Positions 52,909 to 61,490 of a stretch of DNA of 64,000 nucleotides are shown piece after piece. Each line of letters opens with the position of its first letter. The stretch's first letter is position 1. The stretch lies in NCBI GenBank assembly GCA_028284045.1, contig JANQSN010000061.1:1-64000 (forward strand), read 5' to 3'. The DNA is from Alphaproteobacteria bacterium. GTDB lineage: Bacteria > Pseudomonadota > Alphaproteobacteria > DSM-16000 > Inquilinaceae. The notes beneath the pieces were generated by a model. It was not told where the DNA came from and made no database searches. It saw only the letters and a program-made list of their open reading frames with translations. The position numbers and the translations under genes were made by a program.

Positions 52909-52962
52909 ACCCCTGAAACAGGGGTGCCGGCCGCTCTTCTTGCGCCCCGGCGGAACCGGGGC
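52909..52962 (+). promoter_or_regulatory. Two hairpins in the ilvB leader
   Basis: ACCCCTG-AAA-CAGGGGT (52909-52925) and GCCCCGG-CGGAA-CCGGGGC (52944-52962) lie 24-61 bases before the ilvB start, within a 247-bp gap after miaA. The first could end the miaA transcript and either could regulate ilvB. No run of Ile, Val or Leu codons was found in the leader. Confidence 0.45.
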
Positions 52963-58409: not shown

Positions 58410-58544
58410 ATGATGCCGATGGACCCGACCCACTGCCCTGCCCCGACGCGCCGTATTCGCGGCGCGAACGGTGTGGCGTGTGGGCGCGGTGCGATTCGGG
58501 GCCTGCTTCTCCTCGGTCTAGGGACGCGACTTAGCCGCCCCTGA
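58410..58544 (+). CDS. Putative Leu-rich leader peptide of leuA
   Basis: In the 405-bp gap before leuA one frame encodes ...AIRGLLLLGLGTRLSRP and stops at 58542-58544. It contains codons CTG CTT CTC CTC GGT CTA in a row, with a further CTT shortly after, as expected for leucine attenuation. The ATG at 58410 gives 44 residues and a GTG at 58473 gives 23. Neither has a strong ribosome site. The stop lies within the left strand of a long helix. This is inferred from codon content and position only. Confidence 0.45.
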   Translation: MMPMDPTHCPAPTRRIRGANGVACGRGAIRGLLLLGLGTRLSRP

Positions 58545-58632
58545 CCCGCGGCTGTCGAGGATCGCGCCTTCGGTTTCTCTGCCCTGATGGGCCTCCAGGA
58601 ACCACCCGACGATCCTCCCGCGGTCAGGGGCG
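58536..58632 (+). promoter_or_regulatory. Long helix of a probable leuA attenuator
   Basis: 58536-58551 pairs with 58618-58632 over 15 bp with one bulged C (CGCCCCTGACC with GGTCAGGGGCG, then GCGG with CCGC). Directly inside, GAGGATCG (58557-58564) pairs with CGATCCTC (58610-58617), making a nearly continuous 23-bp helix. GACGATCCT recurs at 58669-58677, offering a second partner for AGGATCG. The rest of the gap (58306-58409 and 58633-58710) shows no gene. Confidence 0.55.
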
Positions 58633-58710
58633 AGACCGGCCCGGCTTTCCGGCGGCTGGCGGCGAACAGACGATCCTGAAGACCGCTTTCGACACCGAGG
58701 ACGCATTCCC

Positions 58711-60285
<1,575 letters not shown>

Positions 60286-60314: not shown

Positions 60315-61490
<1,176 letters not shown>

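Follow-up and report, generated by a model that had tools for sequence, protein, structure and literature searches.

Upstream of leuA in the window (the whole stretch of 64,000 nucleotides analysed here) lies a leader that we predict, from sequence comparison, to be a leucine-sensing translational attenuator, in which translation of a leader peptide would control translation of leuA. We put the probability of this reading at roughly 0.7. In the sequences compared, the reading frame of the leader is conserved together with its leucine codons, a hairpin holding its stop codon (P2) covaries, and the leader is complementary, in a species-specific way, to the region of the leuA Shine-Dalgarno (SD) site (P1).

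The leader reading frame

In the window, leuA is preceded by a chemotaxis-receptor-like gene, ilvN and ilvC, and followed by mreB. A GC-rich hairpin followed by TTTT lies 3' of leuA (60316-60345); it resembles an intrinsic terminator, which suggests that leuA is transcribed alone. From position 58503 the leader frame reads CTG CTT CTC CTC GGT CTA GGG ACG CGA CTT AGC CGC CCC TGA. Upstream it is open to GTG58473 and ATG58410, both of which are in frame and either of which is a possible start; a search of the window for a consensus promoter and a clear start codon for the leader ORF found neither. The features of the locus are collected in Table 1.

Table 1. Coordinates of the leuA leader features in the window.
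Feature	Position	Strand	Remarks
Leader ORF, peptide end GLLLLGLGTRLSRP	58473-58544	+	GTG start assumed; stop TGA 58542-58544
Leucine codons	58503-58532	+	CTG CTT CTC CTC 58503-58514, CTA 58518-58520, CTT 58530-58532; leucine run kept in relatives; proposed stalling region and P1 5' strand
P1 core 5' strand UCCUCGGU	58510-58517	+	pairs with 58694-58701
P1 inner 5' strand	58521-58528	+	GGGA 58521-58524 with 58687-58690; GCG 58526-58528 with 58684-58686
Hairpin P2, leader stop codon inside	58536-58632	+	covariation in relatives; R1 match
GACGATCCT, copy 1	58608-58616	+	in right strand of P2
GACGATCCT, copy 2	58669-58677	+	not conserved
P1 inner 3' strand CGCUUUC	58684-58690	+	
P1 core 3' strand ACCGAGGA	58694-58701	+	holds leuA SD GAGGA 58697-58701, 9 nt before start codon
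leuA, 2-isopropylmalate synthase, controlled gene	58711-60285	+	NCBIfam NF002087, 853 bits

We compared the leader with relatives, starting from alphaproteobacterial LeuA homologues (80 loci plus further genomes). LeuA loci often share a layout in which the motif Leu-(Arg/Leu)-Leu-x-x-(usually Pro)-stop closes a leucine-rich frame and GCCCCTGA...CAGGGGA follows. In the resulting 126-locus set, selection of the loci itself accounts for part of the constancy of the CCCCT core and the proline. Three codons ahead of CCC, 116 of these loci have CTT, and the arginine preceding that CTT codon, where present, is encoded by CGA in 77 of 78. The frame is open over 18 codons in 126/126 loci, while the other two frames are open in 80 and 58. 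Of the last 13 codons, 38% encode leucine in the leader frame against 12% and 3% in the others, with two or fewer leucines among the last codons in a few loci. A second, model-aligned set is free of the selection limit and includes the variants CCTCTGA, CCCTTAG and CCCCCGG. Since the frame is conserved across relatives, it is probably translated.

A covarying hairpin holds the stop codon

The outer helix of P2 is formed by CGCCCCTGACC (58536-58546), perfectly paired with GGTCAGGGGCG (58622-58632). The hairpin runs on inward via GAGGATCG and CGATCCTC, with an inner helix at approximately 58558-58565 and 58610-58617. A preliminary description of this DNA had reported a short ORF with leucine codons whose end falls in the left strand of a long helix, and had named covariation in relatives as a check. 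The stop codon does lie within the left strand, and the folding energy of P2, -61.5 kcal/mol, is far beyond chance (z -5.9 against shuffles). The pairing also covaries: among the 125 rows of the model-aligned set, which was fitted to structure and includes some reverse-strand echoes, 8 of the 10 core pairs show compensatory changes and 93% of cells are paired. The covariation score in this set was reached by no shuffle and was lost on sliding the register, and the pattern was unchanged when each locus was represented by a single row (99 rows). An independent MAFFT alignment concurs, with five pairs changed on both sides and 92% paired. By this comparative evidence P2 is an RNA helix. Tests for a pseudoknot gave z -2.2 for the P2 loop with the spacer and z -2.8 for the loop with the SD region, compared with z -9.8 for P2 itself.

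The preliminary description went further and proposed a switch, in which the inner strand AGGATCG alternates between two copies of GACGATCCT. Both copies are present and able to pair, and AGGATCG by itself has a slight preference for the region of copy 2 (-17.9 vs -15.9 kcal/mol). The whole left strand, however, favours its own helix by 20 kcal/mol (-47.7 for the native helix vs -27.3 kcal/mol with copy 2), and copy 2 is missing from all other loci examined. Further, dinucleotide shuffling of the 181-nt leader yields a repeated 9-mer 14% of the time, and the same shuffling of the 300-nt leader 36% of the time. A repeat of at least 8 nt in a comparable place occurs in 6/126 loci, the window included, and none of the others has the GACGATCCT repeat. 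Non-conservation, weaker pairing and a chance-level repeat together speak against the duplicated partner strand, and we regard an AGGATCG switch as extremely improbable; copy 2 is most likely a chance occurrence outside the switch. The broader part of that proposal, a ribosome-controlled attenuator of leuA, stands, with its frame, leucine run, helix and gene context all conserved.

Another way to view P2 is as part of a classical transcription attenuator, as known for the leu operons of gammaproteobacteria: P2 or a later structure would be the terminator, and a ribosome stalled on the leucine codons would favour an antiterminator. A leucine-rich leader ORF with its stop codon in a strong GC-rich hairpin is consistent with such an arrangement, as is the T-rich run found between P2 and leuA in 13 of the 126 loci. 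However, no intrinsic terminator precedes leuA in the window, the T-rich run is absent in the other 113 loci, and the 3' strand of P2 has no conserved alternative partner (z -0.5). The constraint that we do detect is pairing with the SD region. We therefore consider transcription attenuation unlikely, and P2 itself we reject as a terminator for lack of a U-run in the window and most relatives. Because the window lacks an intrinsic terminator and 113/126 relatives lack a T-rich run, control is probably exerted at the level of translation.

Predicted pairing of the leucine codons with the leuA SD region

The core of P1 is extended in the window by GGGA/UUUC, GCG/CGC and UGC/GCA. Although overlooked in the preliminary description, P1 is already visible in the minimum-energy fold. 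Across the 126 loci, the leader strand pairs with the SD region of its own leuA at a mean of -21.3 kcal/mol, against -17.4 kcal/mol for species-swapped combinations (z -12.5). Other controls were likewise weaker, at -17.7 kcal/mol with the leader strand shuffled, -18.9 with the adjoining upstream segment and -14.6 with the leuA coding start, and z was still -7 to -10 once similar loci were removed and GC content was matched. Judged by these comparisons, the complementarity between the leucine strand and the leuA SD region is species-specific.

We then used thermodynamic models, which leave out folding during transcription, to examine exposure of the SD site when the leucine strand is held single-stranded, a mask that mimics a stalled ribosome. 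In 81 of 113 loci the leader strand pairs with SD nucleotides. Masking the leucine strand in silico raised modelled SD exposure (0.23 unmasked, 0.43 masked; p 3e-11). Exposure was 0.33 with the stop region masked and 0.25 for a mask further upstream. At the level of single codons, covariation is suggestive at most: leaders with CTT-CGA and CTG-CGA, compared for matching downstream pentamers, gave 20/37 vs 4/21 (p 0.013), and the converse comparison gave p 0.13. Taken by itself, the P1 duplex of the window is only mildly unusual, with 67 of 2000 shuffles equally good, and in two near relatives (L002 and L009) modelled SD exposure did not rise on leucine-strand masking. Support for P1 in the closest relatives of the window is thus mixed.

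Some of the conservation exceeds what codon supply would demand. The CTTA before P2 and the arginine codon CGA (58527-58533 in the window) are near-invariant among the 126 relatives, more so than leucine codons alone need. UAAG/UGAG, the partner of CUUA, is not enriched downstream (52 observed vs 45.8 ± 5.2 in shuffles), and we found no conserved pairing partner that accounts for the near-invariant CTTA/CGA. The element might instead be a protein-binding site, or might couple untranslated leuA RNA to Rho-dependent termination, with the leader ORF playing only a minor part. Near-invariant bases beside P2 (CTTA, GCCCC/GGGGA) that surpass codon-supply needs would fit such a role, and it would give P2 a function that is otherwise without explanation. 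Yet the open frame and leucine richness are retained in all loci, and it is the leucine codons themselves that pair with the SD site, leaving this explanation, in our view, quite improbable.

Distribution across Alphaproteobacteria

On the sequence evidence, what is conserved is a leader element in single copy, comprising the leucine-rich frame and the covarying hairpin P2 that holds its stop codon. A covariance model built on the conserved leader core (R1), which scores the window's own copy at 39.6 bits, matched 141 of 387 sampled alphaproteobacterial genomes, representing 110 of 264 genera, mostly with one match per genome. In a phylum-wide sample, R1 matched 95 alphaproteobacterial genomes and gave just two weak matches outside the class. 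Searching genomes at the level of the order yielded nothing beyond the family.

A LeuA-type gene lies downstream in 85 of 90 inspected R1 matches. In five of these 85 (L143, L151, L165, L167 and L171) the element is followed by a long-form LeuA, recognised by sequence and confirmed as PRK03739-type (NCBIfam) for L143 and L151. The element thus stands before a long, non-orthologous LeuA and has been retained across LeuA types. Two of the 85 (L155 and L156) have another small gene between the element and leuA, for which a cupin domain was confirmed in L155.

A weak R1 match on the reverse strand of L177 (984-1056), with the same CGCCCCTGAGCG...CGCTCAGGGG hairpin, lies 5' of a threonine ammonia-lyase (ilvA-type) gene; from its sequence and position this is possibly the same device serving isoleucine synthesis. 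Within the window, a small hairpin resembling the P2 core (CCCCTG-AAA-CAGGGG, 52911-52926) lies about 60 bases 5' of the ilvB start, in a region that shows no run of leucine, isoleucine or valine. Finally, six genomes of the same family (G001-G006, genus g2, 93-100% complete) have no LeuA match at E 1e-100, and may use another LeuA type.

A model for leuA control

We infer from the conserved features that the leader ORF is translated, that it responds to leucine through ribosome stalling, and that control acts on translation rather than transcription. In the proposed off state, the codons of the leucine run would be paired with the leuA SD region in P1, with P2 between the two strands, and leuA would be off. 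When leucyl-tRNA is plentiful, the leader peptide would be completed, the ribosome would exit at the stop codon that P2 contains, and refolding would return the RNA to the off state. With leucyl-tRNA in short supply, the ribosome would stall on the leucine codons and cover the 5' strand of P1, freeing the SD site and allowing leuA to be translated. P2 probably acts by drawing the two strands of P1 together.

Since the complement of an SD sequence is similar to leucine codons such as CUC CUU, one stretch could be both amino-acid sensor and SD-hiding strand. We see an even chance that the element is a class-wide, uncatalogued alphaproteobacterial RNA device: the codons that sense leucine would themselves hide the SD site, the device would have stayed attached to leucine synthesis even with the long LeuA, and its hairpin would possibly have been recruited to ilvA. 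If so, a compact translational switch that is described by no RNA family searched would control leucine synthesis in much of the class (110/264 sampled genera). The identity of sensor and hiding strand would then offer a testable design principle, and many unannotated leader peptides could be named.

Comparison with known systems

Searches of Rfam found no family matching the leader in the window or in ten relatives, and Pfam and NCBIfam hold no entry matching the leader peptide. The leucine operon leader of gammaproteobacteria (Rfam Leu_leader) likewise has leucine codons in a leader peptide upstream of genes for leucine synthesis. Leu_leader, however, works by transcription attenuation with a terminator, whereas the window lacks a terminator and the leader here has no match in Rfam. 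The predicted mechanism is closer to the translational attenuation of erm leaders, where stalling in the leader ORF frees a downstream ribosome-binding site; as in translational attenuators, the ribosome-binding site of the gene is predicted to be paired with part of the leader ORF. The erm leaders answer macrolide-bound ribosomes, whereas the leuA leader is predicted to answer a shortage of leucyl-tRNA. A second difference from erm leaders is that the ribosome-binding site here would be hidden by the stalling codons themselves.

Earlier predictions already place leader peptides ahead of alphaproteobacterial genes for branched-chain amino acids: Vitreschak et al. (2004) are credited with a predicted alphaproteobacterial ilvB leader and with branched-chain attenuators in proteobacteria (PMC1273637). 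To the extent that the source describes them, these predictions resemble the present element and may carry partial priority. In the literature searched we found no alphaproteobacterial leuA leader; an actinobacterial one, the LEU element upstream of leuA, was found. In its base stem the run of leucine codons pairs with the SD site of leuA (Seliverstov et al. 2005, PMC1262725), and involvement of a protein has been proposed for it (PMC1262725). By analogy, this is the closest described system: both have a leucine-rich leader ORF before leuA with no obvious terminator, and the base stem of the LEU element has a predicted counterpart in P1. The LEU element, however, belongs to another phylum and has a conserved pseudoknot between the strands of its stem; the alphaproteobacterial leader has, between the strands of P1, a hairpin that contains the leader stop codon.
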